DNA from: Parvularcula sp.
GTDB taxonomy: Bacteria; Pseudomonadota; Alphaproteobacteria; Caulobacterales; Parvularculaceae
Length of the DNA stretch: 25,236 nt
Assembly (NCBI GenBank): GCA_003506635.1
Contig: DNZB01000325.1
Location: forward strand, 1 to 25,236
Reading direction: 5' to 3'
The translations under genes and the position numbers were made by a program. Below, in pieces: positions 1 through 23,851 of the stretch (position 1 is the first letter of the stretch; every line of letters starts with the position of its first letter). Below the pieces are notes generated by a model that was not told the DNA's origin, searched no databases, and saw only the letters and a program-made list of their open reading frames with translations.

Positions 1-3
1 CAT
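1..3 (-). other. possible start codon of the next minus-strand gene (edge)
   Basis: An ATG reads leftward from position 3 on the minus strand, 15 bases after the stop of the DUF6445 gene. A purine-rich GGGCGA lies about five bases before it. This could be the start of the next gene of the same operon, but only the first codon is visible and nothing can be said about its product. Confidence 0.25.
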
Positions 4-18
4 TGATCGCCCGATGGT

Positions 19-732
19 CTAGCCGAGCTTGAGGAAGAAATTTCCGGTAAGCCGGCCGATGCGCGGATCTGCGCTTAGGGGCGCGCTCGGCGGAATAAGC
101 CCCGAATGCAATAGACTTCCCTGATAAATCAGGGTGCGGCCGGCGACAGCTGGAACGGCGAGCAGCATTTCATAATGGGGATCGTCGGGCCTGACATAGC
201 CGGCGTCCAGTCGCTGCGCGCGCGCAAGCTTCGTTGCGGTCCTCACAAAGAGATCGACATTGCCGTCGCTGACCTGCTCGATTCCGGTCGCGAGTTGCCG
301 GAAGAACGCCGTGCCGCCGCCGCCCGGCGCGCTCAGGTAATGCAGCACGGCGATGAATTGCGGGTCGGTGGAGTCAAAATGCGGCGCGCGCTGTTGCGGC
401 GACAGCGCTGCCGGGGCGCGCGTCACCATCGAGAAGCTGGCCTCTATGACACGGAAGGCGTCGCAGTCGAACGCGCCCGCGATAAAGGGCGCGGCGGCGT
501 TCATTAGCGCCGCGACATAGACGTTCGCGGGCTCATGCGCCGCGATCACGCGCCGGACGCCCGGGTAATCATTGGTTGCGACCGGAAACGGCGCCAACGC
601 CGCGGCCAGTCCGACGACCGGCTGAAGATCGTCAATCAGTCCGTCAACGACAACGACCAAGCGCTGCCCGGCGCCGATCCGGTGAAGTTCCGGCTTCACG
701 GCGTGAAACGCGCGAACGGCGCGGAGCGACAA
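19..732 (-). CDS. DUF6445 family protein, putative 2OG-Fe(II) oxygenase-like (copy 1)
   Basis: This is a cytoplasmic protein of 237 residues with no signal peptide or membrane segment. It matches the DUF6445 family often found next to TonB receptors and tryptophan halogenases, and it is a divergent paralogue of the 15481-16158 product. Both share a PH-x-D motif (here H118, D120), then a hydrophobic strand and a GGTAF-like turn, then LLH (H209) and GRLT (R227). This order, HxD...H...R, is the metal and 2-oxoglutarate binding pattern of prolyl-hydroxylase-type oxygenases. The enzymatic assignment is my inference; the family has no function that I know of. It follows receptor 1 by 30 bases in the same frame, after the receptor's TGA, so it is probably cotranscribed. 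The only start available after that stop is TTG at 732, with no clear ribosome binding site. The true start is therefore uncertain. Confidence 0.8.
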   Translation of the reverse strand: MSLRAVRAFHAVKPELHRIGAGQRLVVVVDGLIDDLQPVVGLAAALAPFPVATNDYPGVRRVIAAHEPANVYVAALMNAAAPFIAGAFDCDAFRVIEASFSMVTRAPAALSPQQRAPHFDSTDPQFIAVLHYLSAPGGGGTAFFRQLATGIEQVSDGNVDLFVRTATKLARAQRLDAGYVRPDDPHYEMLLAVPAVAGRTLIYQGSLLHSGLIPPSAPLSADPRIGRLTGNFFLKLG

Positions 733-762
733 GCGCCCCGCGCCGCCGGGAGGAGGCGAGCG

Positions 763-3700
763 TCAGAAATTATACTTGACGCCCACCTGGAACTGCCGCG
801 CGTCGTCGCCGACCTGGCTGTCTTCGACCAGCGGCGCCGGCGATCCGCCGCCTGCGCCCCATGAAGAATAATTGCGATTGAGCCAGTTGAAGACGTTGAA
901 CGCCTCGAAATTGAAGACGAGATCGCCGCCCCACGGCGTCTCGACCGATTTTTCAAGGTACAAGTCGAACCGCTTGTAGCCGAAGGTCTTGTCCGGAAAG
1001 AACACGCCGCCGAGATTGCCGAAGCAGCAAGCTCCGTCCGGAACCTGAAGCGGCGGCGTGCTGTTCCACGGCGCCACGATGTTGCCGAAGGCAGGGCCCG
1101 ATGTAAGCGTCAGCCGCGGCGACACCAGAATGTCGAAGGGCGCGCGATACTGGCCGCTCGCCACCAGGCGCCACTTTTCAACGCCGTTGACATAACCCCA
1201 GCCGTAAGCGTCTTGCGACGCGCCGTTGAAGAACTCATCGGAATTAAGCTCCGCGGCGACGTTCGTTCTGGCGCGCTGATAGGTGAACGTCGTCTGCATG
1301 CCCCAGGTTGAATCCTCAGTGAAGGGCTTTTCGATCGTCAGGTAAATCGCATTGGTGCGCGCCTTGCCGTCGCTGCTGCCGCGATTGAGCTTGCCCGAAA
1401 ATCCCGGCAGTTGGCCGCCGCCCGCCGGACACGCAGCAAAAGTCGAATTCGGCGTGAAATCCTGAATCCAGGCGTCGCCGCCGTCGGTGCAACCGATGAC
1501 GTTGCCGCCGGCGTCGAACTGCAGAACGCGCGAGTACCAGCCGTTCGTAAAGAAGTTCGCGCGGGTGAACTGGAAGATATTGTACGACCGGATGTGCGAA
1601 TAAATGAGGGAGACTGTAAAATCTCCGAAGCGGCGGCGCAGGCCGAGATCGAACTGGTCGGAGAAGGGCAGCTCAGTCTCATTGTTGAGCACCCAGACAT
1701 CGCCGCCGTTCCCGGCGAGCTGGGTGATCGCGAAGTCGCGCAAGGCGTTCGAGTCCGTGCAATAGGCCGGGCCGTTGCCGCCGGCGCAAGCGCCGTCGAA
1801 ATCGACGCCGACGATCCGGTTGCTGTTCGTCAACGTTTCGATCACGCCCTCGATGAACAGCGACCGGTCGTAATAGCGCCCGGCGCCGCCGAACAGAACG
1901 GTCACGCCATCGCCGGCGAAATCATAGGAGAAGCCGAGACGCGGCTGGAAGGCGTCATATTGCGGCTTCCGGTTGTCGCCGGTCGAAATGTAATCTGCCG
2001 GGTCGATGCCGCGCGCCGCCCAGCCCTGATAGTTGTTCAGCGCCGTGACGATCGCCGCCGGCGTCACGTAATTGTTGTTGTTGGCGTTGGTTTCAAAGTC
2101 CCAGCGCAAGCCGGCGTTGAATGTCCAGTGATCGTCCGGGCGCCATTCGTCCTCGACATAAAAACCAAGCTGCCAGTCCTTGCCGGAGACATCCGGCGAC
2201 GGCTGGATGTTGATCCTCGCGCCATAAGGAACCGTCGGGTCAAAAGCGCCGCCGGCGCCCGGATTGGCGAAGAAGTAGCGGCCGTCGAAGCTGTTGTTGA
2301 CCGTCCGCGACAGGTCGAGGTGAACGACCTGGAAGCCGGCCTTGAGCTTATGCTCGCCAAGAATCCAGCTCGCGTCGTTCTTCGCCGTAAACGTCTTCTG
2401 GCGATCGCCCTGTTCGAAGAAGTGCGCGCCGAGCTGCGCATCCCTGCCGCCGACGTTGAAATTCGCCAGCGCATCGAAAGCCGGATCGCTCACCTGCGCG
2501 GGGGTCAGATTCTCTATGACCAGAAATTCAGGCCCATCGCCGATGCTGGGCGTCGATTGCTCGGCGTCGTTGTAGGAGAGGTTGAGCACGTTAAGGAAAT
2601 CGCCAGCGCTGTGGCGCCACCTCAGCGAATAGCGTTCTTCCTCGGTCTTGATCGTGCGGCCATGGCTGCTCGCCGCGTTGGCGTCTATGTCGGAAAGGTT
2701 GTTCTCCCGGCGAACGAAAACGGTGCCGTCCACGGTGTCGTTCCCGGTCGCAAACCAGGAAAGCTTGCCGAAATAGAGTCCCTGCCTGAAGTCGCGGTTA
2801 TGCGGGACGAGGATTTCGGACTGGATCGACGCCGGCAGCGTACTGTTGTCGCCGAGGAAGCCGGTCGATGCGGGCCGGTTTTCAATCGTGCCCTCGCCCG
2901 CGACATAAAAATGGAGGACGCCGGGAATGATCGGCCCGCCAAGTTCGCCGCCGAACTGGTTGCGGTTAAGGTCCGGCTTGGGATCGCCGCGCCGCTTTTC
3001 GAAAAACGGCTGGGTGATGAACGCCTTGGGCTGATACTCATAAAACAATGAGCCGTGGAATTCGTCGCCGCCGGTTTTGGTCACGGCGGAAACGAGCGCC
3101 GATCCCGCCTGTCCGGTCTCCGCGCCGAAGTTCTGGGTGATGACCTGATATTCCTGGATGGCGATCTGCGGGAACGGGTTGCCGAGACCGAAATTCTGGC
3201 CGAACACGCCGCCATGATTGATCGGGTTCTTGATTGAGATGCCGTCGAGTAGAACATTGACGTTCGAAGCGCTGACGCCCCCGGCCTGAATCTGGGCGGT
3301 GCCGCCGCGCGTCACCGCGACGCCCGGGGCAAGTTCGGCAAAGCTGAGGAAGTTGCGGCGCTGCTGAGGGAGGACTTCGATCTGCGCCGGCGTAATGCTG
3401 GTCGATACGGCGGACGAGCGGACGTCGAGAACACGGCGCGTGCCGGTGACGACGATCACGTCGTCACCTTCGGCGGCGAAATCGAGGCGCGCGGTCTGCC
3501 CGACGAGCAGTGTTGTTGTTTGCTCGCCCTTGCCGGCGACGCTGACCGAATAGGACGACGGGCGCAGGCCGAGGACCCGGTATCTTCCCGACGCATCGAC
3601 CGTCGCGACGGACTTTTGCCCTGTATTGGTGTCGGTGATGACGACTTGCGTACCCGCCGGCGCCCCGACGACGCGCCCTTCGATCGACGCGGTGTCGGTC

Positions 3701-3795
3701 TGGGCGAAGGCGGGACTGGCAGCGGCCAAAGCCAGCGCCAATGCGGTCGCCGAAATTCCCTGTTGGAACCGATTACATCTGTACTTCCGAGTCAT
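763..3795 (-). CDS. TonB-dependent receptor, Oar-like, with N-terminal carboxypeptidase-regulatory-like domain (receptor 1)
   Basis: This is a 1010-residue outer-membrane transporter, probably importing the oligosaccharide that the neighbouring hydrolases act on. A Sec signal peptide ends near ASPAFAQ (about residue 31). A carboxypeptidase-regulatory-like beta-sandwich follows (about 35-107), then a TonB-box-like stretch DDVIVVTG (about 111-118), a plug domain (about 125-245, with LLDGISIKNP and TKTGGDEFHG) and a long barrel ending in an aromatic residue (KYNF). The extra N-terminal domain and plug motifs are those of Oar/CarboxypepD_reg receptors. The ATG at 3795 is supported by GGGAGGG five bases upstream. 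A likely LacI operator lies about 105 bases upstream of the start, and a second lies within codons 7-11, giving a Cys-Asn-Arg in the signal-peptide n-region. The 30-base gap to the DUF6445 gene suggests cotranscription. The exact substrate cannot be read from the sequence. Confidence 0.93.
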   Translation of the reverse strand: MTRKYRCNRFQQGISATALALALAAASPAFAQTDTASIEGRVVGAPAGTQVVITDTNTGQKSVATVDASGRYRVLGLRPSSYSVSVAGKGEQTTTLLVGQTARLDFAAEGDDVIVVTGTRRVLDVRSSAVSTSITPAQIEVLPQQRRNFLSFAELAPGVAVTRGGTAQIQAGGVSASNVNVLLDGISIKNPINHGGVFGQNFGLGNPFPQIAIQEYQVITQNFGAETGQAGSALVSAVTKTGGDEFHGSLFYEYQPKAFITQPFFEKRRGDPKPDLNRNQFGGELGGPIIPGVLHFYVAGEGTIENRPASTGFLGDNSTLPASIQSEILVPHNRDFRQGLYFGKLSWFATGNDTVDGTVFVRRENNLSDIDANAASSHGRTIKTEEERYSLRWRHSAGDFLNVLNLSYNDAEQSTPSIGDGPEFLVIENLTPAQVSDPAFDALANFNVGGRDAQLGAHFFEQGDRQKTFTAKNDASWILGEHKLKAGFQVVHLDLSRTVNNSFDGRYFFANPGAGGAFDPTVPYGARINIQPSPDVSGKDWQLGFYVEDEWRPDDHWTFNAGLRWDFETNANNNNYVTPAAIVTALNNYQGWAARGIDPADYISTGDNRKPQYDAFQPRLGFSYDFAGDGVTVLFGGAGRYYDRSLFIEGVIETLTNSNRIVGVDFDGACAGGNGPAYCTDSNALRDFAITQLAGNGGDVWVLNNETELPFSDQFDLGLRRRFGDFTVSLIYSHIRSYNIFQFTRANFFTNGWYSRVLQFDAGGNVIGCTDGGDAWIQDFTPNSTFAACPAGGGQLPGFSGKLNRGSSDGKARTNAIYLTIEKPFTEDSTWGMQTTFTYQRARTNVAAELNSDEFFNGASQDAYGWGYVNGVEKWRLVASGQYRAPFDILVSPRLTLTSGPAFGNIVAPWNSTPPLQVPDGACCFGNLGGVFFPDKTFGYKRFDLYLEKSVETPWGGDLVFNFEAFNVFNWLNRNYSSWGAGGGSPAPLVEDSQVGDDARQFQVGVKYNF
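3764..3777 (-). promoter_or_regulatory. putative LacI operator inside the 5' end of the receptor 1 gene
   Basis: On the minus strand the site reads TGTAATCGGTTCCA. It shares its first 11 bases with the site at the GH3/lacI promoter and has the central CG typical of LacI-family operators. It covers codons 7-11 of receptor 1, downstream of any plausible transcription start. Its centre is 137 bp from the upstream site at 3901-3914, close to 13 helical turns, which would suit DNA looping by a dimer-of-dimers or a roadblock to transcription. Binding is inferred. Confidence 0.55.
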
Positions 3796-3800
3796 GGTGT

Positions 3801-3807: not shown

Positions 3808-3815
3808 ATTTCGGC

Positions 3816-3967: not shown

Positions 3968-5533
3968 TCAGCCTCGCTTGATCGGCGCGATGATCGCGCT
4001 GTCCAGCCGCCCTTCCTTCTCCGGCAAGCGGCTGATGAATGCCGCGTGATCGGGCATCTGCGCGGCCGTCTTGGCGATCGTGTCGACGATGTCGTTGAGA
4101 AATTCAGCAAGATCCGCGTCGGAAACGAATCGGGAGACGGGATCGGCGCAAGCGGCGAGCCCCTGGCCCAGCAACACCTGCACCCAGCTTTCCTCGGCAA
4201 AGAGCTCAAGCTTGCTGTGACCGAAAAACCGGCCTGAGGACTGGAAGAGCGCGATCCTGCGGGCGAGCGATTCTGGAACCGTCATTTCCCGCACGTGGTC
4301 CCAGAAAGGATCGCCGCGCCGGCGCGTGACCTTGTAATGGGCGATGATGAAGTCGCGAATGTCCTCGTATTCAAGTTTCGTTTGCAAATTGAACTCGTCA
4401 ATATCGGCCATGTTAAACCCGCGCGCCGGAAAGAGCGCGATCAGCCGATGGACCGCCGTCTGGATAAGGTGAATGCTTGTCGATTCGAGCGGCTCCAGAA
4501 AACCGCTCGACAATCCGATCGCGACGACATTGTTGCGCCAAGCTTCGCGGCGGCGACCGGGACGAAACCGCACCGGCCGCGGATCGGCGAGCGGCGCTGA
4601 GTCCAGACCCGACAGGAGCGTCGCCGCAGCTTCGTCATCGCTGACAAGATCGGCGCAGTAGACAAGTCCGTTGCCGATGCGGTGCTGAAGCGGAATGCGC
4701 CATTGCCAGCCGGCCTTCTTCGCGGTCGAGCGCGTATAGGGCGCGAGCGGCGAGACGCTTTCGGAGGGCGCCGCAAGCGCGCGATTGCACAGAAGCCATT
4801 GGCTCCAGTCTTCGTATCCGACGCCCTGCGCGCCGTCGATCAGCAAGGCGCGCATCCCCGAGCAATCGACAAACAGGTCGCCGCCGACGCTGCGCCCGTC
4901 CTTCAGGTCAACGGAACGCACGAAACCCGTCTCGCTGTCGGTCGTGACATTGACGACAAGCCCCTCGATCCGCTCGACGCCGCGCTTCTCGCATTCGCCG
5001 CGCAAGAACGCAGCGAACAACGAAGCGTCAAAATGATAGGCGAAATCGAGATCGGCGAGCGGCGTGTTGGAAAGCCGCGGGTCCTGGAACCGGAAGCGGT
5101 TGTCGAGCGCGGCGCGGCAGTTAATCGAATACTGGTCGAAATGCGAAACCTTTACGCCGCGTTCCCTTGCCGCCAGCCATAGCTGGTGCGTATGCAGCCA
5201 CAGCATGTCGCGGCCGATACGCCCAAATCCATGGATATAGGATTCTTCCGGCGCGCCCCAGTCGACAAATTGAATGCCGAGCTTGAACGTCGCCTTTGAG
5301 GCGTGAAGCATGCGCAACTGATCGACACCGGCGAGCGCCATGTAATTGCGTATATGCGGGATTGTCGCCTCGCCGACGCCGATCGCCCCGATCTCATCGG
5401 ATTCGATCAGGCGAACCTTCACTCTGGTCAGCAGCTTCGAAAGCGCCGCCGCCGTCATCCATCCGGCCGTGCCGCCGCCGACAATGGTGACGCTGGAGAC
5501 CGGCGCATCTTGCGTGCTCGCTTCGGCGTCCAT
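3968..5533 (-). CDS. flavin-dependent tryptophan-halogenase family protein (copy 1)
   Basis: This 521-residue cytoplasmic flavoprotein of the tryptophan-halogenase family is close to PrnA-type enzymes in length. The FAD-binding VGGGTAGWM loop is at about 18-26 and IGVGEATIP at 51-59. K84 in FKLGI aligns with the catalytic Lys79 of PrnA. The family signature WQWRIP is at 276-281. EPLEST is near 347-352, where E350 aligns with PrnA Glu346. The family motif continues ESTG in PrnA, but here it reads ESTS at the position that helps hold the halide. It shares this change with the second copy in this window. Members near TonB receptors have mostly unknown substrates, so free tryptophan need not be the target. 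It is 46 bases downstream of the GH144-like gene on the same strand, so the two probably share an operon with lacI. The ATG at 5533 has an AAGGGA-like site upstream. Confidence 0.92.
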   Translation of the reverse strand: MDAEASTQDAPVSSVTIVGGGTAGWMTAAALSKLLTRVKVRLIESDEIGAIGVGEATIPHIRNYMALAGVDQLRMLHASKATFKLGIQFVDWGAPEESYIHGFGRIGRDMLWLHTHQLWLAARERGVKVSHFDQYSINCRAALDNRFRFQDPRLSNTPLADLDFAYHFDASLFAAFLRGECEKRGVERIEGLVVNVTTDSETGFVRSVDLKDGRSVGGDLFVDCSGMRALLIDGAQGVGYEDWSQWLLCNRALAAPSESVSPLAPYTRSTAKKAGWQWRIPLQHRIGNGLVYCADLVSDDEAAATLLSGLDSAPLADPRPVRFRPGRRREAWRNNVVAIGLSSGFLEPLESTSIHLIQTAVHRLIALFPARGFNMADIDEFNLQTKLEYEDIRDFIIAHYKVTRRRGDPFWDHVREMTVPESLARRIALFQSSGRFFGHSKLELFAEESWVQVLLGQGLAACADPVSRFVSDADLAEFLNDIVDTIAKTAAQMPDHAAFISRLPEKEGRLDSAIIAPIKRG

Positions 5534-5579: not shown

Positions 5580-6983
5580 CTAGGCGCCGAGCCAGCCGCC
5601 GGAGAAGCCCGCGCGGCGCAGTCCCTTGCGGATTCTCGGAACCTTGCGCATGACGCGCCAAACGGCTTCGCGGCGATAATTGGCGATCATCGCCAGAATG
5701 GGCCCCTGGTCGATCCCGAGATAATCCGTCGCCGTCCAGCCGTGCTCTGCGTCGACGGTCCCGGTCTCCAGCGCCAGCGCGGGGTCGCGCAGGCCGGGAT
5801 TAAAGCTGTCACGAAATCCGTAGACGTCATAAAGGCCCGGCCGCGCCGCCATCGCCCGCGCCGCCGGAATGACGATCTCCGGCGCAAATGGCAGAGAGCC
5901 GAGCGCCGCCGTCGGCGCGATCGTGCCGTCATCAAGACCATCGGGCTGACCCAGCGGGCCGCGGGCGGCGTAGCCGTAAATGCGCCTTTGCGCCGCACCG
6001 TCGCCTGTCAAGAAAGCGCCGGGACCGTCGCAGGCCGTCAGTCCCCATAAATCGGCGGAATAGCCGCGCCAGCCGCCGGGATTTTCAACGCAGTAAGCGC
6101 GATTGGCGTAGGTCGCGCGGCGGCTGTTTTCGAAATAGTCAAACCCCGCCGCGCGGTTCGCCGCATCGTTGACGCCGCGGAAATCATACCAGATATGGCT
6201 GTATTGATGGCCAAAGAGCGGGGCGAAGGCGATGTGGCGATCACCCCCCTCGCCGCGCCAGAAGTCGTTGATCGTCGCGAGCCAGGCCTCCCATGCGCCG
6301 TCATCGACCGGGCGATCATTGGCGCCGAGCGCCAGCAGCGGCGCCATCATTCCCTCATTATAGGCGGTCCAGCCGCGATCTATGAATCCGGCCCCCGGAT
6401 GCCAACCCATCGAGATGTCGCCGCGCCCGCGCTGGAACCAGCGCCAGTCTGCGCGCTCGACGATGCGGTCGGCGAGCCGGCGGATTTCCCTTTCATCGGG
6501 ATGTCCGCTGTCGAACCAGGCGGCGGCGTAGAGCATGCCGAGAAACAGAATCGAGGAATCGATGCTCGACAGCTCGGTCCCACGGTAGCGACGGCCGGTG
6601 TCGAGATGCAGGAAATGATAGAAGAAGCCGCGATAGCCGGCGCTAGCCGTCGGATCTTCCGTTTGCGGCGCGCTGTCAAAAAAGCGCAAGGTCGCAAGCG
6701 TCCGCCGGCGCGCCTGCGCGCGGCCGATATAGCCGCGCTCGGCGCCGATCGGATAAGCGGTCAACGCAAATCCGACGGCGGCGATCGAAGATGGCCCCGG
6801 CGAAGGCCAGCGATCGGGGAAAAGCCCGTTGTCGTCGCGCCCGAGGTCCCAGAAGAACTTGAAGGTCCGGCCCTCAATATCGTCAAGAAGAGACGGCGCG
6901 CGAGGCCTTGCCGCAAAGGCCGGCGCCGCGGCGAGCGCCGGCATCGCCCCCATCGCGAGGATCGCCTGTCGTCTTGAGATCAA
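5580..6983 (-). CDS. GH144/glucoamylase-like family enzyme, Tat-exported, probable endo-beta-1,2-glucanase
   Basis: This 467-residue protein belongs to the glucoamylase-like family (Pfam PF10091, COG5368), whose characterised bacterial members in GH144 are endo-beta-1,2-glucanases. Family marks are FKFFWD (about 41-46), SSIDSSIL (139-146), YNEGMM (208-213), GHQYSHIWYDFRG (258-270) and YLGIDQGPI near the C terminus. An alpha/alpha-barrel fold is expected. The N terminus has a twin-arginine motif, SRRQAIL (residues 3-9), followed by an alanine-rich stretch ending AFA-A, so Tat export to the periplasm is likely. The start is TTG at 6983, and the lacI stop TGA overlaps it (TTGA), which suggests translational coupling. 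Using a later ATG would remove the twin-arginine motif, which supports the TTG. The beta-1,2 specificity comes from the family, not from residues I could test. Confidence 0.87.
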   Translation of the reverse strand: MISRRQAILAMGAMPALAAAPAFAARPRAPSLLDDIEGRTFKFFWDLGRDDNGLFPDRWPSPGPSSIAAVGFALTAYPIGAERGYIGRAQARRRTLATLRFFDSAPQTEDPTASAGYRGFFYHFLHLDTGRRYRGTELSSIDSSILFLGMLYAAAWFDSGHPDEREIRRLADRIVERADWRWFQRGRGDISMGWHPGAGFIDRGWTAYNEGMMAPLLALGANDRPVDDGAWEAWLATINDFWRGEGGDRHIAFAPLFGHQYSHIWYDFRGVNDAANRAAGFDYFENSRRATYANRAYCVENPGGWRGYSADLWGLTACDGPGAFLTGDGAAQRRIYGYAARGPLGQPDGLDDGTIAPTAALGSLPFAPEIVIPAARAMAARPGLYDVYGFRDSFNPGLRDPALALETGTVDAEHGWTATDYLGIDQGPILAMIANYRREAVWRVMRKVPRIRKGLRRAGFSGGWLGA

Positions 6984-7978
6984 TGCGGCCGCCCCTGCGT
7001 GGTCGCGCGCAGCACAAGTTCAAGCGGCTGGACTTCCGGCGTTGCGCCGGCCTCTTGCGACGTCACCATGGCGACCAGCCGTTCGACCGCTGCCGCACCG
7101 ATGTCGGCGACCGGAACCCGGACCGTTGAAAGCCCAAGGTGACGGGCGAGCGGAATATCGTCAAAGCCGATAAGGGCGACGTCTTCAGGAACGCGCAGCC
7201 CATGCGCGCGCAGCGCCTCAAGCGCGCCGATCGCCGTCATGTCGTTCGCCGCCATGACGCCGTCGAACCTCTCACCGCGCGCCAGCCAGTCGCGAACGAT
7301 CCGGGCGCCGCCGTCCTCGCCGAAATCGCCGGCGCCGACCAAAGGCGCTGGCGCGCCAGCGGCGGCGATCGCTGAAAGAAAACCCTGGCGCCGCTCCCGG
7401 GCGTCGAAATTGCCCTCCGGGCCCGCGATATGCGCCAGTCGCCGGCGCCCGATCGCGAGAAGATGGCGCGTTGCTGACGCCGCCCCCTCGCGATTGTCGA
7501 TGATAAATGAAGGCCGTTTCTTGCTCGGCTGGCAGATGACCTGCACGCCCGGCATTTCCTCCGGCATCAGCCGGTCGATCGCGTCACGAGAAAGTTGCGG
7601 CGCCATCACGGCGAGTCCGTCGACCCGTCCGCGCATGACGGCGATCGCCTGGCCGGCGAGCTGCGGATCGGCATGCATTGTGGACAACAACAAGAGATAG
7701 CCACGCTCGCTCGCCGCCTTGTCCATGCCGCGGATCAGTTCGGAGAAGAATTCGCCGTGCAGGTCCGGCAGCACGACGCCAAGGGTTCTCGTTTGCGAAC
7801 TCGAAAGGCTTCGCGCGGCGGCGTTCGGCACATAGTGCAGATCGTCGATCGCCTGAAGGACCCGGTCGCGCGTGTCGTCGCGGACATTCTTGTGGCCGTT
7901 GAGCGCCCGCGAAACAGACGCTACCGACACCTTCGCGCGCCGCGCGACGTCGCGGATCGTTGCTGGCCGCGATTTCAC
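6980..7978 (-). CDS. LacI-family transcriptional regulator
   Basis: This 332-residue repressor-type regulator has an N-terminal helix-turn-helix (TIRDVARRAKVSVASVSRAL, about 7-26), a hinge helix YVPNAAARSL (about 52-61) and a periplasmic-binding-protein-like effector domain starting at TLGVVLPD. The family binds CG-centred palindromes and releases them on binding a sugar. It is divergent from the GH3 gene, with about 106 bases between them holding an operator-like site. Its stop overlaps the TTG start of the GH144-like gene, so it heads the minus-strand operon. The start is GTG at 7978; there is no in-frame ATG just upstream. Likely effectors are glucose or short beta-glucosides, by inference from the neighbouring enzymes. 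It probably controls both this operon and the GH3-GH31-transporter operon. Confidence 0.94.
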   Translation of the reverse strand: MKSRPATIRDVARRAKVSVASVSRALNGHKNVRDDTRDRVLQAIDDLHYVPNAAARSLSSSQTRTLGVVLPDLHGEFFSELIRGMDKAASERGYLLLLSTMHADPQLAGQAIAVMRGRVDGLAVMAPQLSRDAIDRLMPEEMPGVQVICQPSKKRPSFIIDNREGAASATRHLLAIGRRRLAHIAGPEGNFDARERRQGFLSAIAAAGAPAPLVGAGDFGEDGGARIVRDWLARGERFDGVMAANDMTAIGALEALRAHGLRVPEDVALIGFDDIPLARHLGLSTVRVPVADIGAAAVERLVAMVTSQEAGATPEVQPLELVLRATTQGRPH

Positions 7979-8061: not shown

Positions 8062-8084
8062 TTTCGGTCGGCCAGAGGTTTTTG

Positions 8085-16158: not shown

Positions 16159-16185
16159 CGCCCGACTGAAGGCGCGAGGCGCGCC

Positions 16186-16199: not shown

Positions 16200-16204
16200 A
16201 CGCT

Positions 16205-16232: not shown

Positions 16233-16238
16233 TCGCCC

Positions 16239-17249
16239 ATGAAAAGAGCCGCGGAACGCCATTTCACGACGATCGCGGAATTCCAGCAGGACGTTCGCGC
16301 CGCCGGGGCGCCGTGCGTCATGCGCGGCCTTGCAGCTGACTGGCCGCTTGTCATGGCGGCTGTCGACGGGGCCGGCGCCTGTCTGTCGCGTCTTAAATCC
16401 ATGGCGGCGGAAAAGCCGATCTCTTTTGCATCCGCCGCGCCGGATACGGCTGGCCGTCTGCACTATGATGACGCAGTCGCGGGGCCGAATTTCCGCCGGC
16501 GCACGATCGGATTGCCGCAGTTTCTTGATCTTTGCGCCGACATCGAAGCGAACGAATACCACGCCGCGCAAGGCCTCACCGCTGATGATTTCTTCCCGGC
16601 TTTCCGCCGCGATCATCCGATGCCGCTGGCGCCGGACATCGCGGCGCCGCGCTTCTGGATCGGCGGTCCGGTGACAGTCGCCGCGCATGCCGACCCCGCC
16701 GTCAATATCGCGGTTGTAGCCGCCGGCCGGCGCCGGTTTACGCTTTTCCCGCCGGAAGCGATCGGAAATCTCTATATGGGCCCGTTTCATATCACTCCCG
16801 GGGGCCCGCCGGTCAGCATGGCGCATATCTCGGCGCCGGACTTCAGCGCCTACCCGAGATTGGCCGCAGCGATGGACGCCGCGCTTGTCGCCGAACTTGA
16901 TCCGGGCGACGCGATTTTTATTCCCTATTACTGGTTTCATCACGTCGAGTCGCTCGACGCTTTCAATGTCCTCGTCAATTATTGGTGGGACGACGCGCGT
17001 GAGGATGTCGGTTCCGCCTTTGACGTGCTGATGCACGGCATGATGACGCTCAGGAACTTGCCGGCTGATCAGCGTCGCGCCTGGCGGGCGATGTTCGATC
17101 AATATGTTTTTCTGACGAACGGCGATCCCGGCGCGCATCTGCCCGTTAGCGCCCGCGGTATAATGGCCGCGTCCAGCCCCCAGGACATAAAACGGATGCG
17201 CGCAGCGCTGATCGCCAGGCTGAGAGACGGCGCGGCGGCAGGGAGCTAG
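16239..17249 (+). CDS. cupin_8/JmjC-like protein, putative Fe(II)/2OG hydroxylase (FIH-like)
   Basis: This 336-residue soluble protein of the cupin_8 family resembles the asparaginyl hydroxylase FIH. The jelly-roll motifs are clear: WIGGPVTVAAHAD with H150 and D152, the GRRRFTLFPPE strand (163-173), and FIPYYWFHHVESL with H235 as the distal metal ligand, then NVLVNYWW. The HxD...H facial triad is complete, so an Fe(II)/2-oxoglutarate oxygenase is likely. FIH hydroxylates protein side chains, but the target here is unknown. Members of this family are repeatedly seen beside TonB receptors and tryptophan halogenases. It is divergent from DUF6445 copy 2 and ends 14 bases before the convergent halogenase copy 2. 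Confidence 0.9.
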   Translation: MKRAAERHFTTIAEFQQDVRAAGAPCVMRGLAADWPLVMAAVDGAGACLSRLKSMAAEKPISFASAAPDTAGRLHYDDAVAGPNFRRRTIGLPQFLDLCADIEANEYHAAQGLTADDFFPAFRRDHPMPLAPDIAAPRFWIGGPVTVAAHADPAVNIAVVAAGRRRFTLFPPEAIGNLYMGPFHITPGGPPVSMAHISAPDFSAYPRLAAAMDAALVAELDPGDAIFIPYYWFHHVESLDAFNVLVNYWWDDAREDVGSAFDVLMHGMMTLRNLPADQRRAWRAMFDQYVFLTNGDPGAHLPVSARGIMAASSPQDIKRMRAALIARLRDGAAAGS

Positions 17250-17263
17250 GTTGTCCGCGCGCG

Positions 17264-18760
17264 TCAGGCCTTGCATGTCTTGGCCACGAAATCGGCATGC
17301 GACGGCATGACAGCGACGCACTTGCCGATGACGTTTTCAATGTTGCCGAGATATTGCGCAAGCTGGGTGTCGCTTTTGATATCGACAAGCGGATCATATC
17401 CGCGCGGAATGACATCCTGCCCGAGAAAAACCTGGATCCAGCTTTCCTCGGTGAAGAGCTCATCGTCTTCACGGAAAACCCGGCCATTGGAGGCGAAAAG
17501 GTCCCATTTGCGTCGCAGCGTCGAAGGGATCTCCATCGCGCGGCAATGGCGCCAGAACGGCGTGTCGTCCCGGCTTGTCGCCTTGTAGTGGAGAATAATG
17601 AAATCGCGGATGCGCTCATACTCGAAATCGGTCTGGCGATTGAACTCGTCAATTGTCGCCTGGTCGAAACTCGCATCCGGCAGGAGCCGGATGAGCCGGA
17701 TCACCGCCGACTGGATGAGGTGAAGGCTGGTCGATTCCAGCGGCTCTAGGAATCCGCTTGCAAGGCCGACAGCGACGCAGTTCTTGTTCCAGATTTTCTT
17801 TCGCTTGCCTGTGGTAAAGCGGATGTGCAGTGGATCGGTCAGCGGTGCGCCGTCGAGATTTTCAATGAGAATCTTTTCCGCCTCGTCGGCTTCCATGAAA
17901 CTACTGCAAAAGACATGGCCGTTGCCGGTTCTGTGCTGGAGGGGAATGCGCCACTGCCATCCCGCCGTCCGGGCGGTCGATTTCGTATAGGGCGTGAAAT
18001 TTTCGGACCGCGCGCAGCCGACGGCGATAGCGCGATCGCAAGGAAGATATCGCGTCCAGTCTTCATAGCCGGTCTTCAGCGCCTTCTCGATAATGACGCC
18101 GTGAAAGCCGGAGCAGTCGATAAAGAAATCCGCAGCGATCGTTTCGCCGTCCGCCATCGTGACGGACTGAACGAATCCGTCCTCGGCGTTGAGGGTCGCA
18201 TCGGCGATCTTGCCCTCGCGCCGCCGGACGCCGCGATCTTCCGCATAGCCGCGCAGAAACCGCGCGTAGAGCCCGGCGTCGAAATGGAACGCATGTGCGA
18301 TATGGGCGAGCGGCGAGTCCGGCATGTCGGCCGCCGCGCGCATGAATTTGTTCTGCAGGGCGGCCGCCGTATTGATCGAGTAATTCGCAAAATCCGACGC
18401 GCGACCGGACTTTCGCGCCCGCAGCCAGTATTGGTGCGCGCGCAGCCATTCAAGATTCTGACCGATAACACCGAAGCCGTGGATGTAGGACGAGCCGAGC
18501 TGCGACCAGTCATTGAACTGGATGCCGAGCTTGAAACTGCCTTGCGTGCGCTTGATGAACTCGTTCTCGTCAAGCCCGAGAAGTTCGTTGTATTTCTTGA
18601 TGGCCGGAATCGTCGCTTCGCCGACGCCGATCGTGCCGATATCCTCGGACTCGACGAGCGTGATCTCGTATAGTCCCTGGAACAGCCGCGAAAGGAGCGC
18701 GGCGCTCATCCAGCCGGCAGAACCGCCGCCCACGATCATGATCTTTTTGAGGTGCTTCAT
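17264..18760 (-). CDS. flavin-dependent tryptophan-halogenase family protein (copy 2)
   Basis: This 498-residue cytoplasmic flavoprotein is a paralogue of the 3968-5533 product. It has VGGGSAGWM (10-18), IGVGEATIP (44-52), FKLGI with K77 at the PrnA Lys79 position, WQWRIP (268-273) and EPLEST (339-344) with E342 at the PrnA Glu346 position. S345 replaces the Gly that follows Thr in PrnA. All catalytic residues are present, so it should bind FAD and may halogenate an unknown electron-rich aromatic. It lies 29 bases after the GH3 lipoprotein gene and is probably cotranscribed with it. The ATG at 18760 has GGAGG about ten bases upstream. No signal peptide is seen, so it acts in the cytoplasm and needs a flavin reductase from elsewhere. 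Confidence 0.92.
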   Translation of the reverse strand: MKHLKKIMIVGGGSAGWMSAALLSRLFQGLYEITLVESEDIGTIGVGEATIPAIKKYNELLGLDENEFIKRTQGSFKLGIQFNDWSQLGSSYIHGFGVIGQNLEWLRAHQYWLRARKSGRASDFANYSINTAAALQNKFMRAAADMPDSPLAHIAHAFHFDAGLYARFLRGYAEDRGVRRREGKIADATLNAEDGFVQSVTMADGETIAADFFIDCSGFHGVIIEKALKTGYEDWTRYLPCDRAIAVGCARSENFTPYTKSTARTAGWQWRIPLQHRTGNGHVFCSSFMEADEAEKILIENLDGAPLTDPLHIRFTTGKRKKIWNKNCVAVGLASGFLEPLESTSLHLIQSAVIRLIRLLPDASFDQATIDEFNRQTDFEYERIRDFIILHYKATSRDDTPFWRHCRAMEIPSTLRRKWDLFASNGRVFREDDELFTEESWIQVFLGQDVIPRGYDPLVDIKSDTQLAQYLGNIENVIGKCVAVMPSHADFVAKTCKA

Positions 18761-18789: not shown

Positions 18790-20751
18790 CTAATCGCAGG
18801 CGAGCGCGACATTTGCCTCCGGAAGTTTCCTCTTTGAACCCGGCTGAGCATAGGTCAGACCGAAGCCGCGAGCGAATGCGACATTCCCGGCGTCCCGCAA
18901 GTCTGAGCCGCAGGCGGCGCCCGGCCAGTCGAACGACAGGCGGGCCGTAAAATCATGTCGAGGGGCGCCGGCCGCGGGCTTTAGAATGAGGTCCGCAAGA
19001 CCGCCCGCTTCGGAGCCCGGCAGAAACGCGGCGATAAAAGCATCCGAAAGGTTGATCAGGTCGTTCGCATAGACCGGCCGCCCTGAATAAAAGACAGTAA
19101 TGAGCGGCGCGCCTCTGCCGGAAACGGCTTGAAGGACCGCAAGATCCTCGGGATATTTCAAGGAATGCGAGAGCGGCGCCGGATAGGCGACATCGCCCTT
19201 CATTTCCGCATAGGAATGTTCGCCGATGACGGCGACAATCGCCGAGAACGCCGCCGGATCGACGCCCGCGCCATCCGGCGAATAGACGACCTGTTCAGCG
19301 CCAAGCGCGCCCCTTAGCGCGGCGAGAAGCGTTTCTCCCGTCGTGAAATCGGCATTGGTCGTCTCGTCGCCCTGCCAGGTGATCGACCAGCCGCCGGTTT
19401 GATCGGGCAGACTGTCGGCGCTCTTGCCGACGACGAGAATCCTGGCGCCGGGCGCGATCGGGGCCGCAAGATTTTCATTCTTCAGGAGAACGGCTGACTT
19501 CCGAACCGCCTCGCGCGCCAGCGCGCGCGCTTCGACGGCGGCGTCGTCGCCGAAATGACGGCTTGCGGCGGGCGACTTGTCGAACAGACCGGATTTCATC
19601 TTGACCCGAAGTATTCGCGTCACCGCATCATCGATACGACTCATCGGAACACGGCCTGCGCGTACGTCTTCCGCCGTGTTGGCGATAAATGATTTCCAGT
19701 CCTCCGGGACCATGAAGAGATCGACGCCCGCATTCACCGCCTCGGGGCAATGATCGCGCCGGCAGCCCGGAACCTGCTCGATTGCATTCCAGTCCGATAC
19801 GACAAGGCCGTCGAATTTGAGGCCGTCCTTGAGAACGCCGGTCAGCAACTCGCGCGACCCGTGCATTTTTCCATAATTCCTGCTCGCCGCTTCGTCATTC
19901 CAGCTGTTATAGGACGCCATGACCGTCAGGACCCCGGCGTCGAGGGCCCGGTAATACCCGGCCGCATGAACGGAAATCATTTCGGCGAGCGTCGCGCGGT
20001 TCTCGCCCTGGTCCTTGCCGAGATAGGTGCCGCCGTCGCCGAGAAAATGCTTCGCCGTCGCGATGACGTCGCCATCGCCGGAGAGATCGCCCTGAAGCCC
20101 GCGCACCATCGCCGCGGCATAGTCCGCAACAAGCGCAGGATCGCTTGAGTAGCTTTCATACGTGCGGCCCCAGCGCGGATTCTCGACGACGGCGAGCGTC
20201 GGCGCGAAGGCCCAGGTAATCCCGGTCGCGCGAACCGCCTTCGCTGTGGCGCGGCCGATCCGGTAGATGAGATCCGGATCGTGCGCGGCGCCGAGCCCGA
20301 TATTGTGCGGGAACATCGTCGCCTGACCGAGATTGTTGTGTCCATGCACGGCGTCGGTCCCCCATAACACGGGGACCGGAGTCTTCATGTCCGTCGACAT
20401 CGAAGCTCGATAGAACTGATCGGCGAGATCGGCCCAGTCCTTGACGCTTGCGCGTCTGTTCATTCCGGGCCAGGCGCCGCCGCCATTCAGAATTGAGCCG
20501 ATATAATAATTCCGGACTTCAGCGGGCGTGATGGACCGGATATCCGCCTGCGTCATCTGCCCGATTTTCTGCTCTAGCGTCATTTCGGCGACGATCGCGG
20601 CGATGCGGACGTCCATCTCCCCGTCCCGCGTGCGCGGCTCGCTTCTGGTCGGCCATGCCGCCTTGATGTCTTTTGCGCCCGCCCCCGGAACAGCGCATCC
20701 AGTCGTCAACGCCGCGGCAAGCGCCCACAGCAGCTTTCGGCGGAACTTCAT
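18790..20751 (-). CDS. GH3 exo-beta-glucosidase, ExoP/barley exohydrolase type, lipoprotein
   Basis: This GH3 enzyme has about 653 residues and a lipobox LTTGC near its N terminus, so it is membrane-anchored. Motifs include WGTDAVHGHNN, KHFLGDGGT, the nucleophile FDGLVVSDW (Asp at about 320 from the ATG) and the acid/base IGEHSYAEMKGD (the Glu after Ala, about 516). These match the barley exo-beta-glucanase and bacterial ExoP group, which remove glucose from beta-1,3- and beta-1,4-linked chains among others. It is shorter than many bacterial ExoP proteins (over 800 residues) and lacks their extra C-terminal domain. It is unlike the other GH3 in this window, so the two likely prefer different linkages. 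A GTG four codons upstream (20763) is an alternative start, but ATG at 20751 gives the more typical lipoprotein signal. Confidence 0.92.
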   Translation of the reverse strand: MKFRRKLLWALAAALTTGCAVPGAGAKDIKAAWPTRSEPRTRDGEMDVRIAAIVAEMTLEQKIGQMTQADIRSITPAEVRNYYIGSILNGGGAWPGMNRRASVKDWADLADQFYRASMSTDMKTPVPVLWGTDAVHGHNNLGQATMFPHNIGLGAAHDPDLIYRIGRATAKAVRATGITWAFAPTLAVVENPRWGRTYESYSSDPALVADYAAAMVRGLQGDLSGDGDVIATAKHFLGDGGTYLGKDQGENRATLAEMISVHAAGYYRALDAGVLTVMASYNSWNDEAASRNYGKMHGSRELLTGVLKDGLKFDGLVVSDWNAIEQVPGCRRDHCPEAVNAGVDLFMVPEDWKSFIANTAEDVRAGRVPMSRIDDAVTRILRVKMKSGLFDKSPAASRHFGDDAAVEARALAREAVRKSAVLLKNENLAAPIAPGARILVVGKSADSLPDQTGGWSITWQGDETTNADFTTGETLLAALRGALGAEQVVYSPDGAGVDPAAFSAIVAVIGEHSYAEMKGDVAYPAPLSHSLKYPEDLAVLQAVSGRGAPLITVFYSGRPVYANDLINLSDAFIAAFLPGSEAGGLADLILKPAAGAPRHDFTARLSFDWPGAACGSDLRDAGNVAFARGFGLTYAQPGSKRKLPEANVALACD

Positions 20752-20938
20752 ATCCACTCTCACTTGATCAATGGGAATCCTGCGCCCTCAATTCAGTCTC
20801 AAGTCTCGCGAAGTGGGGCGCCGCAGGGGGCGCCGAACAGCAATGACGCCGTTCGAATTGCCCCTCAATCGATGCGTCGCCATCGCGCACTCGTCCAAAG
20901 TCAGGACGCTTGCAGGGTCGCGCGCCCTTTGATCAAGA

Positions 20939-20978
20939 GGCCGGCGCCGACGCGGGTAGGATAGCGTCGGCGCCGGCC
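20939..20978 (-). terminator. hairpin terminator after receptor 2
   Basis: A perfect 15-pair GC-rich stem (20939-20953 with 20964-20978) with a ten-base loop lies 44 bases after the receptor 2 stop. On the minus strand it is followed by TCTTGATC, a weak T-tract. It probably ends or attenuates receptor 2 transcripts before the GH3 gene. The rest of the 259-base gap (20764-21022) holds no gene I can support. Confidence 0.65.
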
Positions 20979-21022
20979 GTCTTCCGTTCCGGACCAGACG
21001 AGGCGGGAGTCCCCGCACCGGT

Positions 21023-23851
21023 CTAGAAGCGGTAGCTGAAGCCGAGCAGGAATTCCCGCCCGTACTCTTCGTAGGTTTCGGGAAGGAATCCGCCATCAGC
21101 GGTCTTAACGCCTCCGCCGTCGACCCCGATCCGCGTCCTGAAGGGTGAATTCGTCAGGTTATTGACCTGGAATAGAATGCCGAGCCCCTCAAGCGAGGAT
21201 CCTTCCTCGAATGTGTAGCCGATCTGCGCATCGACTTGTCGGTCGGCGAGAATTTCGGTGACGCCGCGCGTTGCAAAAAGCTGCACGACCTCGCCCTTGA
21301 ACGCCGAACGGTAACGCTGGCTGATCCGCGCCTGGAACCCGTCTTTCTCGTAGTAGCCGGTGATGTTGTAAACGGTGCCGGAAAGACCGGGAATCCGCAC
21401 AACCGCCGTCGTCGACGACGTCGGATTGATGTTCGAGTCTGAATAGGAAAGACTTCCAATAAATCCAAACCCGTCAAGAAAATCGGTTATGAGGCCAAAG
21501 TTCAGCGCGCCGCTGACCTCGACGCCTTTGACGTTCCCGCCCCTGCCGTTCGCCGGCACGGTTCTCGTGCCGATGGGATCGATAATTACGCCGGGCGGAA
21601 TGGATGCTCCGCTCGGAATCGGCACGCCGGTGAAATCGAACGGGATCGTCTGTGCAAAGATGTAGTTGTCGAGTTTCTTGTAGAACCCGGCCACCGCGAA
21701 ATAGCTCGACTTATCAATGTACCACTCATAGGAAAGATCGATCGCTTTGGCGCGCCAGGGTTCAAGCTGAGGGTTGCCGCCGCGAGCCGTCCAGGGATGG
21801 ACAACATCGCCCGGCTGCGACGAGGCCGGTATGCCGAATGACGGCGAGAGATTCGCACGAAGCTCGTCCATCCGCGGTCGCGCCATGGTCTTCGAGGCCG
21901 AAAGCCGGATGCGATGGCCGCCGCCAAGATCGTAGGAAAGGTTCAGGCTCGGAAGGACATCCGTATACTCCGCGCCGCCAACAATCGGCGTCGGGACGAC
22001 CGGGTTGCCCTGAATGACGACGCCGACCGATTCTTGAGTTTGCCTGACCACCTGGACGCCGACATTTCCTCTGAGCGCGCCAGTTTCGATGTTCGCTCGG
22101 GCAAATCCTGTCCAGACGTTCTCCTGAACGTTCCATGCCTTGTCGAAGAAGTTGCCGTCACGAATAGGCGCAGACGAATAATAGGTGTCGAGCGCGGCCG
22201 GCAGGTTGATGCTCAACACATTTCCAAAGCCGGCGAAAGAAAGCGAAGTCGGATCGACGAGGAATTGCGGATCGACAAGGACCTGCTGGCGTCCGTTAAG
22301 CAGAAACAAGTCGTTGTCGTCGACGGTTTTGTCTTTCTCGCGCTCCGTGCGATTAACGCCGAAATCGATGCTGTCGATGAAGCCGTCGAGATCAAGCGTG
22401 CCGCGCAGATCGACGGAAACAACCTCCTCCTCGACATGCGGGAACCGGATGGCGCCGTCATGCGCCCAACCGCCCCAGGGCGCACGGTCGCCGAGCGAAA
22501 CTTGCGACGCGTCGGCGTAGTTGAGGCCCTCGCTGTAGGTCGGAAACCCTTCGAGCGGAAAGTGGAAGTCGATCGTGTCAAAGGTGCGCCCGACATTCTG
22601 CGTCGCACCGGTCACGCCGCCGACGCCAAGGCCGTAGCCGGCGTAAGTCTCAAGCACCTGCTCGTCGCGGTCATTGTTCGAATAGGAGAAATCGGCGATG
22701 AACTTCAGCCGATCTGTGGCCTCGTATTCGGCGTTAAGGCCGCCCGAGAAAAGCTCGTCTTTGCGCTTGTTGAAATCGTTGCGGATGATCGGAACGCCGT
22801 TGTTGAGGGTCCCGTCGGTCGCAAAGAGCGAGCCGCCGCGATCGATCGTTTGCACATCGGTGAAAGTCGCGCCGTCCGCCCATCCGTTTGAGAACCACTG
22901 CGCGCCGCGCATCGTCTCGCGCTGCTTGAAACGCGAATAATAGAGATCGGCCGTGGCATGGAGCTTCTCGCCGGGCGCCCATTCGATGATGCCGATCGCG
23001 GCGTGCCGCTTGTTTTCACGCGAAAAGGCGAAGACTTCCTGGCCGTTCACCAGCAAGGCGGAGTCGGCGGAATCCGGCGTGACCGCGAATCCGAAAGCCT
23101 CGTAGCTGTAGGCCTTGAAGTGCTTGTTCTGCGACGGCGCGTCGAGATAGGCGTAACCGAGCGCGACGCCGATCGTATCATCGGCGAACTGGTCGATATA
23201 GCTGATCGTGCCCCGCGTTCCGATTCGATTGACGTCGTCATTCAGCTTTCCGCCGTCGACGAAGGAGCCGCGCACGTTCATCGCGATCGTGCGATCTTCG
23301 TAATCGAGGGGCCTGACCGTGCGGAGATCCGCCGTGCCGGAAAGGCCCGTACCGATAATACCCGCATCAGGGGTCTTGTAGACGACGACGCTCGACAGAA
23401 GTTCGGACGGATATTGGTCGAACTCGACGGCGCGGTTATCGCCGGAACTCGCCTGCTGGCGACCGTTCAGGAGAGTCGTTGAAAAGTCCGGCGAAAGGCC
23501 CCGGATGGAAATCACTTGCGCGCGGCCGTTGACGCGCTGGCCCGCAAGTCCTGGAAGGCGCGCCAGCGATTCAGCGATCGACATGTCGGGAAGCTTGCCG
23601 ATTTCCTCGGCCGATATGGCTTCGACGATCGAGGTTTCGTTCTTCTTGATATCGAGCGAGCGGCCGATGCCGCCGCGAATGCCGGTGACGATGATTTCGT
23701 CCTTGACCTTTTCCGGCTCGTTCTCGTCTTCTTGCTCTTGCGCCAGGGCCGCGCCGGACGCGAAAGCCGCCAAGGCGAGCGCCGAGGCCGTCAAATAGAA
23801 TCGCGACGGCGTCAAAGATAAACGACGGCCGTCGATTGAACGCGTCTTCAT
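21023..23851 (-). CDS. TonB-dependent receptor of the Xanthomonas/Caulobacter type (receptor 2)
   Basis: This 942-residue outer-membrane receptor has a Sec signal peptide ending near AALAQ (about 38), an acidic linker, a TonB box EIIVTG (52-57) and a plug with KLPDMSIAESLARLPG (86-101), VISIRGLSPDF, LLNGRQQ and VVVYKTPDAGI, then a barrel ending FSYRF. It lacks the N-terminal sandwich domain of receptor 1, so it is a distinct subfamily. Long receptors of this type import plant or microbial oligosaccharides. It stands alone between a promoter with a perfect palindrome upstream and a hairpin terminator downstream. The next minus-strand genes are the GH3 lipoprotein and a halogenase. The ATG at 23851 has GGGAGGG five bases before it, the same arrangement as receptor 1. 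Confidence 0.94.
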   Translation of the reverse strand: MKTRSIDGRRLSLTPSRFYLTASALALAAFASGAALAQEQEDENEPEKVKDEIIVTGIRGGIGRSLDIKKNETSIVEAISAEEIGKLPDMSIAESLARLPGLAGQRVNGRAQVISIRGLSPDFSTTLLNGRQQASSGDNRAVEFDQYPSELLSSVVVYKTPDAGIIGTGLSGTADLRTVRPLDYEDRTIAMNVRGSFVDGGKLNDDVNRIGTRGTISYIDQFADDTIGVALGYAYLDAPSQNKHFKAYSYEAFGFAVTPDSADSALLVNGQEVFAFSRENKRHAAIGIIEWAPGEKLHATADLYYSRFKQRETMRGAQWFSNGWADGATFTDVQTIDRGGSLFATDGTLNNGVPIIRNDFNKRKDELFSGGLNAEYEATDRLKFIADFSYSNNDRDEQVLETYAGYGLGVGGVTGATQNVGRTFDTIDFHFPLEGFPTYSEGLNYADASQVSLGDRAPWGGWAHDGAIRFPHVEEEVVSVDLRGTLDLDGFIDSIDFGVNRTEREKDKTVDDNDLFLLNGRQQVLVDPQFLVDPTSLSFAGFGNVLSINLPAALDTYYSSAPIRDGNFFDKAWNVQENVWTGFARANIETGALRGNVGVQVVRQTQESVGVVIQGNPVVPTPIVGGAEYTDVLPSLNLSYDLGGGHRIRLSASKTMARPRMDELRANLSPSFGIPASSQPGDVVHPWTARGGNPQLEPWRAKAIDLSYEWYIDKSSYFAVAGFYKKLDNYIFAQTIPFDFTGVPIPSGASIPPGVIIDPIGTRTVPANGRGGNVKGVEVSGALNFGLITDFLDGFGFIGSLSYSDSNINPTSSTTAVVRIPGLSGTVYNITGYYEKDGFQARISQRYRSAFKGEVVQLFATRGVTEILADRQVDAQIGYTFEEGSSLEGLGILFQVNNLTNSPFRTRIGVDGGGVKTADGGFLPETYEEYGREFLLGFSYRF

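Follow-up and report, generated by a model that had tools for sequence, protein, structure and literature searches.

Halogenase and predicted oxygenase genes as a recurrent module beside TonB receptors: two cassettes in a Parvularcula glycan locus

TonB carbohydrate utilisation loci of the Xanthomonas type (PMC1790865) bring together a TonB receptor, a regulator, a transporter and hydrolases, and the same components are found in the DNA discussed here, a stretch from Parvularcula sp. that will be called the window and that comprises the left 25,236 bases of contig C279 (genome 72% complete; 62.8% G+C). Interleaved with its glycan genes the window also carries two flavin-dependent halogenases (HalA and HalB), two DUF6445 proteins and one cupin_8 protein, a description that goes back to an initial annotation made from the sequence and that is borne out by Pfam matches; in contrast, a search of the main text of PMC1790865 for halogenase, SapC, cupin, pass1 and hydroxylase finds none of these words. 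The enzymes are of known kinds, and it is their receptor-dedicated arrangement that is unusual: the set recurs as a module, and its link to TonB receptors goes far beyond chance.

The solved sequences nearest to HalA and HalB are those of BrvH (6frl) and Xcc4156 (6y1w), together with 9luq, the same three being the nearest solved chains for HalA itself, and the catalytic Lys, the catalytic Glu and the WxWxIP motif are common to BrvH/Xcc4156 and both window proteins. HalA and HalB score above the cut-off of the PF04820 profile and have the GGGxAG flavin motif of that superfamily (as GGG(T/S)AG, inside the first 25 residues of each); the catalytic Lys and Glu and WQWRIP are intact in HalA, as are K77, E342 and WQWRIP in HalB. 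Judged by these features, both are flavin halogenases of the BrvH/Xcc4156 type with their catalytic residues in place. In the portions of PMC7336383 and PMC5945002 consulted, such enzymes are described as having open active sites, as refusing free Trp and as having native substrates that are recorded as unknown; the corresponding portion of PMC5945002 likens the active site of BrvH to that of the peptide halogenase MibH, and reports that BrvH brominates indole weakly. As presented in those portions, BrvH and Xcc4156 were studied as lone enzymes, whereas HalA and HalB sit with receptors, and the term TonB has no occurrence in the main text of either paper.

Gene content and order give each of the two receptors in the window a BrvH-type halogenase and a DUF6445 of its own, in line with what had originally been proposed. 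Two gene groups can be distinguished, namely cassette 1 (TBDT1, HalA, DUF6445a) and cassette 2 (TBDT2, HalB, DUF6445b and the cupin), with the glycan genes interleaved; the receptors belong to different families according to Pfam and TIGRFAM profiles. Cassette 1 lies entirely on the minus strand in the order LacI regulator, PF10091 hydrolase, HalA, TBDT1, DUF6445a, where the first two genes overlap by 4 nucleotides and the later gaps are 46, 172 and 30 bp (HalA being 172 bp upstream of TBDT1, and the start of DUF6445a 30 bp past it). In cassette 2 the minus-strand run consists of TBDT2, GH3b and HalB, with gaps of 259 and 29 bp, while DUF6445b is found beyond the cupin, on the minus strand with GH30 (gap 14 bp). 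The cupin gene itself, correctly noticed in the initial annotation, had to be moved to the plus strand, opposite to its neighbours: it is convergent with HalB, and divergent from DUF6445b over 80 bp. Between the cassettes GH3a, GH31 and the GPH transporter follow one another on the plus strand. The earlier statement that the five enzymes lack export signals agrees with inspection by eye, which shows no signal peptide in any of them.

A survey of genomes had been suggested along with the initial annotation, on the footing that coupling no greater than chance would speak against a joint role. In eight genomes, chosen because they hold such loci, a receptor matching TIGR01782 is found no more than 5 kb away for 57 of the 65 halogenases, as against 3.4 expected, so the coupling clearly exceeds chance; the corresponding figures are 11 of 17 for DUF6445 and 16 of 21 for SapC (0.8 expected for each). 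These expectations assume uniform placement; the count used 102 receptor matches of at least about 275 bits, leaving out weaker or unlisted rows, and two fragment rows of one DUF6445 were merged. Viewed from the receptor side, 38 of the 102 have a halogenase within 5 kb and 64 have none. Because the eight genomes were selected, the count was repeated on 26 genomes chosen by kinship (the window's own included), taking as a receptor any match to one of five receptor models. Fifteen of these genomes have a halogenase, and 53 of 64 halogenase open reading frames (ORFs) lie within 5 kb of a receptor, a raw count without a chance expectation. As for the 11 distant ones, HalB is among them only because its contig was handled in two pieces; four (L013 twice, L337, L356) sit on contigs that are short or truncated, two are the far members of a tandem array that starts nearer the receptor (L352), and the remaining four (L324, L334, L335, L336) come from stretches without a receptor. 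Starting instead from DUF6445, the best 80 of 382 loci were taken from a collection with one genome per species (some loci are cut by contig ends, and many of the Sphingomonas strains are closely related). A halogenase and a TonB receptor are present within 5 kb in 54 of the 80; 12 of these add both cupin and SapC, and 11 add cupin. The rest comprise 8 with a receptor and no halogenase, 3 with a halogenase and no receptor, and 15 with neither.

The order of the genes varies from group to group. In 12 gammaproteobacterial loci (from Rheinheimera, Paraglaciecola, Luteimonas, Pseudoxanthomonas, Microbulbifer and Saccharophagus) it is TBDT-SapC-cupin-halogenase-DUF6445; elsewhere the orders TBDT-GH3-halogenase with cupin and DUF6445, LacI-halogenase-TBDT1-DUF6445, and halogenase-DUF6445 facing TBDT_b are seen. 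Sphingomonads keep LacI, TBDT_XC, (GH3), halogenase, DUF6445, cupin and GH30 together much as in cassette 2, and relatives of the window also show TBDT-halogenase-SapC-cupin-halogenase (L353, L359). In the 80 loci, halogenase and DUF6445 adjoin each other on one strand 41 times, with a median gap of -4 and a gap of exactly -4 (a stop/start overlap) in 17, the larger overlaps reflecting the choice of first start codon. In keeping with the initial view that sugar catabolism needs none of these enzymes, the set can be found in some genomes without a recognised sugar enzyme close by. No glycan enzyme was found among nine neighbours tested against Pfam (four in L073, two each in L088 and L100, one in L072), and further neighbours of L088 and L100 look housekeeping by eye; on the other hand, a GH3 gene is present in the stretch in five of the 12 gammaproteobacterial loci (L058, L074, L086, L094, L097). 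SapC (PF07277; L058:6662-7408 and relatives) is present in 25 of 26 relatives and has a confident predicted structure, for which no match was found among solved structures in the searches made. A family of 695-residue proteins (L054:10669-12756) adjoins TBDT_b receptors with halogenase and DUF6445 in 18 loci; the one member tested has no Pfam match.

The type of receptor is mirrored in the halogenase and DUF6445 lineages. Over 155 tips of the halogenase tree the partner receptor type (TBDT_XC, TBDT_b or TBDT1) changes three times, compared with a mean of 20.3 and a minimum of 17 after shuffling, and over 66 tips of the DUF6445 tree it changes twice (shuffled mean 15.8, minimum 11). Tips with no receptor within 5 kb, or with one of the rarer types, were dropped (50 of 205 halogenases and 35 of 101 DUF6445); many loci in the tree set have flanks of only 1.5 kb, the data contain only three TBDT1 cassettes, and the TBDT_b cassettes are mostly from related Sphingomonas strains. 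The nearest relatives of HalA and DUF6445a adjoin TBDT1-type receptors, in a genome of the same genus (G005; L347, L024) and in Sphingomonas sp. JC676 (G030; L250, L215), and HalB comes closest to halogenases from Sphingomonas loci and related ones that have TBDT_XC, GH30 and cupin. On the receptor tree the paired state changes 10 times (shuffled mean 42, minimum 30); for this tree unpaired receptors were admitted only from the eight genomes, and duplicates and receptors shorter than 750 residues were left out, while 30 loci of unknown strand were scored as paired if a halogenase was near either possible position. It must be remembered that block inheritance would also give such patterns, so that the trees demonstrate a lasting partnership and not, by themselves, contact. 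Within genomes, the co-phylogeny of halogenase and receptor paralogues gives r 0.31 (p 0.067, 39 comparisons, two genomes); the overall value of r 0.82 is confounded by species descent.

In 192 of 205 aligned halogenase ORFs both catalytic residues, Lys and Glu, are still present. Ten tips with an altered Lys form one exact ten-tip clade (FastTree support 0.74), in which the Glu is lost as well in all ten. Because one gene accounts for two of the tips, the clade stands for nine genes, spread over six genomes (four in G030 and one each in G031, G033, G006, G014 and G015); by their coordinates, all nine belong to receptor clusters, where seven of them have an intact halogenase on either side. 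Three further ORFs fail the residue check and were outside the clade test, namely L101_67 (Lys kept, Glu lost), L224_13 (cut by a gap) and L273_10, which has a gap at the Lys and Phe at the Glu and is flanked by two intact halogenases. Since a non-catalytic sister has been retained, a complex or a substrate-recruiting subunit is suggested. In a metagenome-assembled genome of Rhizomicrobium, DUF6445, cupin_8 and five tandem halogenases, one without the catalytic Glu, occur together (L101:2329-11875), with no receptor in the 13-kb stretch.

For DUF6445 a structure prediction (predicted local distance difference test score 95.4) has the double-stranded beta-helix fold, and the best fold matches include protein hydroxylases, with OGFOD1 first and PHD2, the Pseudomonas putida prolyl 4-hydroxylase (P4H) and LH3 also among them. 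An HxD...H...R arrangement is common to DUF6445 and OGFOD1, PHD2 and bacterial P4H, as is the fold, at only some 11-12% identity over the aligned part. Among 101 DUF6445 sequences H105 and D107 are present in all, H197 in 98 (1 Gln, 2 gaps) and R215 in 99 (2 gaps); in alignment A1, which includes DUF6445a, HxD, H and R are invariant. Fold and residues together are the basis for predicting that DUF6445 is an Fe(II)/2-oxoglutarate (2OG) oxygenase, of the kind that includes prolyl and lysyl hydroxylases. DUF6445 genes also recur in other contexts, with no receptor or halogenase in the stretch (L053, L057, L078, L082, L096, L048, L049); one neighbour common to receptor-less loci presumably resembles RNA 2',3'-cyclic phosphodiesterase, to go by its motif.

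The cassette 2 cupin is predicted to be a JmjC-type hydroxylase, in view of its PF13621 profile match and a conserved HxD...H (H150, D152, H234). The label FIH-like used initially was roughly right, the nearest solved sequence being JMJD5 (E 3.3e-14) and FIH coming second (2.6e-12), with the iron-binding HxD...H kept. HxD is present in 55 of 63 aligned sequences and H234 in 53 of those 55 (2 gaps); the remaining eight carry Gln and Asn at these positions, and the two of the eight that were inspected are proteins of more than 680 residues of another kind, which had entered through a Cupin8 model contaminated by a fused protein (the sequences were recounted and the model rebuilt). A later filter rejected 17 sequences, some of which, at 339-361 residues, could be genuine cupins; the numbers given for cupins may therefore be slight underestimates. 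The position of the JMJD5 'GRK' lysine, which we take to be 2OG-binding, is occupied in the cupin by Arg165, invariant in the 55 HxD-bearing sequences. Antisense to the cupin runs a minus-strand ORF of 388 residues (16155-17321) that is longer than the real gene; it was rejected as a gene, having no Pfam match as against the plus-strand Cupin_8 match (E 3.7e-53), and it is a trap for automatic annotation.

The palindrome TGGAAGCGCTTCCA upstream of TBDT2 is the sole site of its kind in the window at no more than two mismatches (0.3 expected). Since 26 of 100 shuffled windows also have at least one such site, the case for an operator has to be made on conservation: the site occurs in 24 of 295 loci, and of 19 that were mapped 17 are at or near the start of a homologous receptor and 6 near GH3, four being both (negative distances reflect the choice of first start codon). 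It is predicted to be a LacI-type operator, and, as HalB stands behind TBDT2 and GH3b with this site upstream, HalB is probably made when the receptor is induced. No site of this type was found at cassette 1.

What the enzymes act upon is best read, in our view, as a peptide or protein specific to each cassette, a reading to which we would give rather less than an even chance. It rests on the open sites of the nearest halogenases, the protein-hydroxylase-like partners and the cassette-specific lineages, while the many sets per genome (23 halogenases in G030) and the dead paralogue beside active ones are what favour a large, cassette-specific substrate. The enzymes would be made together with the receptor when glycan is present; halogenase, DUF6445 and cupin would work in the cytoplasm, where the halogenases would add a halogen, probably bromine, to an aromatic ring in a peptide or protein of that receptor's pathway, and the oxygenases would hydroxylate a side chain on the same molecule. 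Possible targets are a partner in the TonB system, a peptide whose gene lies elsewhere and the precursor of the receptor, so that the receptor itself is only one candidate. There is a parallel in the biosynthesis of NAI-107, where, according to the part of PMC12615548 consulted, MibH chlorinates Trp after Pro hydroxylation, comparable to a halogenase with a P4H-like DUF6445. MibH and SrpI halogenate Trp within precursor peptides, whereas no such precursor was recognised beside the cassettes.

Several results weigh against a peptide or protein as substrate. A comparison of 3575 intergenic frames brought no recognisable conserved precursor peptide to light: of the 12 largest clusters, which were the ones shown, 11 read as ends or other frames of known genes or as an operator, and the one left unexplained is a short conserved frame between TBDT_b and a FecR-like gene in six related Sphingomonas loci (L068:15635-15673, minus strand, and five others). 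No residue marks the paired receptors once descent is allowed for, and small-molecule oxygenases match the DUF6445 fold about as well as protein hydroxylases do. Regarding the receptors, 77 paired and 54 unpaired TBDT_XC receptors differ at many columns, and pairing follows clades. In 10 independent pairs, over 903 columns filled in at least half of the rows, the best residue has a net excess of 5 (reached by three residues), a value of at least 5 being obtained in 1021 of 1024 label flips, and the 25 residues with a net excess of at least 4 are fewer than the flip mean of 35. A Tyr at position -3, present in 49 of 76 paired as against 12 of 54 unpaired receptors, fails as a mark in TBDT_b receptors, which mostly end in LKF or FRF; Trp content is similar in paired and unpaired receptors, at 1.3 and 1.4%. 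Of the initial proposal the tie to receptors is supported, halogenase and DUF6445 lineages tracking receptor type; modification of the receptor itself finds no support here.

A small molecule of some kind, taking together the three forms in which this could be imagined, comes only just short of an even chance. The substrate could be a small aromatic (indole, hydroxycinnamate or similar) brought in along with the glycan or set free from it, the set then serving as an accessory catabolic or tailoring step. The weak bromination of indole by BrvH, the LacI and hydrolase genes that often accompany paired receptors, the GH3 genes of the gammaproteobacterial loci and the resemblance of DUF6445 to small-molecule oxygenases all fit this; however, the neighbours of L073, L088 and L100 that were tested or read include no recognised glycan enzyme, these enzyme families are shared by receptors of different families, and a shared small aromatic, as contemplated in the initial annotation, fits poorly with many sets per genome. 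We regard the idea as unlikely. It is quite unlikely that the set serves to make, under the control of the glycan, a small halogenated compound for signalling or defence that is independent of receptor function. Tandem halogenases do occur, as in L101, and halogenases of this superfamily often serve natural products, but there is no biosynthetic scaffold gene among the genes of the window, none was recognised by eye in the larger shared families of the loci (which are only partly annotated), and each receptor type keeps its own lineages. That the enzymes guard the entry route, inactivating aromatic toxins or toxin-like compounds that come in through that receptor, would agree with one set per receptor type, with the tight coupling and with the open active sites of relatives, yet 64 of the 102 TIGR01782 receptors of the same genomes have no halogenase within 5 kb, and the explanation seems improbable.

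Distinctly improbable is genomic hitch-hiking, in which enzymes and receptors would share glycan-inducible operons with no functional link. Block inheritance of cassettes would indeed yield congruent trees as well, but the partnership persists in Alpha- and Gammaproteobacteria though gene order varies. Returning to the cassette-specific peptide or protein, a more general proposal, to which only a minor chance can be given, is that many Gram-negatives provide individual TonB receptors with a private protein-modification system, in which a halogenated, hydroxylated mark on a pathway-specific protein licenses or tunes uptake. An equally doubtful list of its parts would be a brominating halogenase (with a dead sister in some cases), one or two protein hydroxylases and, in many, SapC. 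Were this true, it would amount to a new class of bacterial post-translational modification. Independently of it, the lineage-matched pairing points the search for BrvH/Xcc4156 substrates at the receptor's own pathway, DUF6445 gains a predicted activity, and the dead halogenase paralogue and SapC can be named as likely non-catalytic parts.

Halogenases of this type are reported to occur next to receptors in Xanthomonas and Caulobacter. The initial annotation's view that co-occurrence of the families near TonB receptors is known could not be confirmed from the paper listings consulted. Among the literature matches listed no paper describes the set, and most subscription papers were outside the search, so that a publication is possible. 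PMC12871659 mentions neither TonB nor SapC, and the portion of PMC11337851 consulted raises, as a speculation, a possible influence of an unknown flavin halogenase on virus-host receptor interactions. An identification of the genes of the set with the Xanthomonas 'nix' genes proved wrong, these being N-glycan hydrolases according to the part of PMC5700972 seen.

Table 1. Features of the window, with the loci of the dead halogenase paralogues found elsewhere.
Feature	Position or loci	Strand	Evidence
DUF6445a, predicted Fe(II)/2OG oxygenase, cassette 1	19..732	-	PF20043 E 1.2e-54
TBDT1, TonB receptor with CarboxypepD_reg and OMP_b-brl_4, cassette 1	763..3795	-	PF25183 E 7.7e-54, PF13620, PF00593
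HalA, flavin-dependent halogenase, cassette 1	3968..5533	-	PF04820 E 2.9e-173
Glycoamylase-family hydrolase, same gene run as HalA	5580..6983	-	PF10091 E 2.2e-71
LacI-family regulator, head of cassette 1	6980..7978	-	PF00356 and PF13377
GH3a, BglX-like beta-glucosidase	8082..10370	+	NF011678 744 bits, cut-off 666
GH31	10367..12703	+	PF01055 E 1.1e-111
GPH/MFS sugar transporter	12700..14031	+	PF13347 E 3.1e-52
GH30, endo-1,6-beta-glucanase-like	14048..15466	-	PF02055 E 2.9e-38; NF053856 279.5 bits, under cut-off 700
DUF6445b, predicted Fe(II)/2OG oxygenase, cassette 2	15481..16158	-	DUF6445 profile E 8e-71
Cupin_8 (JmjC-like) predicted oxygenase, cassette 2	16239..17249	+	PF13621 E 3.7e-53
HalB, flavin-dependent halogenase, cassette 2	17264..18760	-	PF04820 E 4.1e-200
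GH3b, between TBDT2 and HalB	18790..20763	-	PF00933 E 2.2e-80
TBDT2, TonB-Xanth-Caul receptor, cassette 2	21023..23851	-	TIGR01782 561.7 bits, cut-off 310
Palindrome TGGAAGCGCTTCCA, predicted LacI-type operator	23950..23963		perfect palindrome, 98 bp upstream of TBDT2 start
Dead halogenase paralogues	L261, L186, L201, L176, L247, L178/L184, L342, L354, L325		

No tRNA was found in the window, and no Rfam family reaches its gathering score there. The PF10091 family, to which the hydrolase of cassette 1 is assigned, is one that we take to include beta-1,2-glucanases (GH144). To the right of base 25236, beyond the edge of the window, a masked run of N lies inside an MFS gene (L017).

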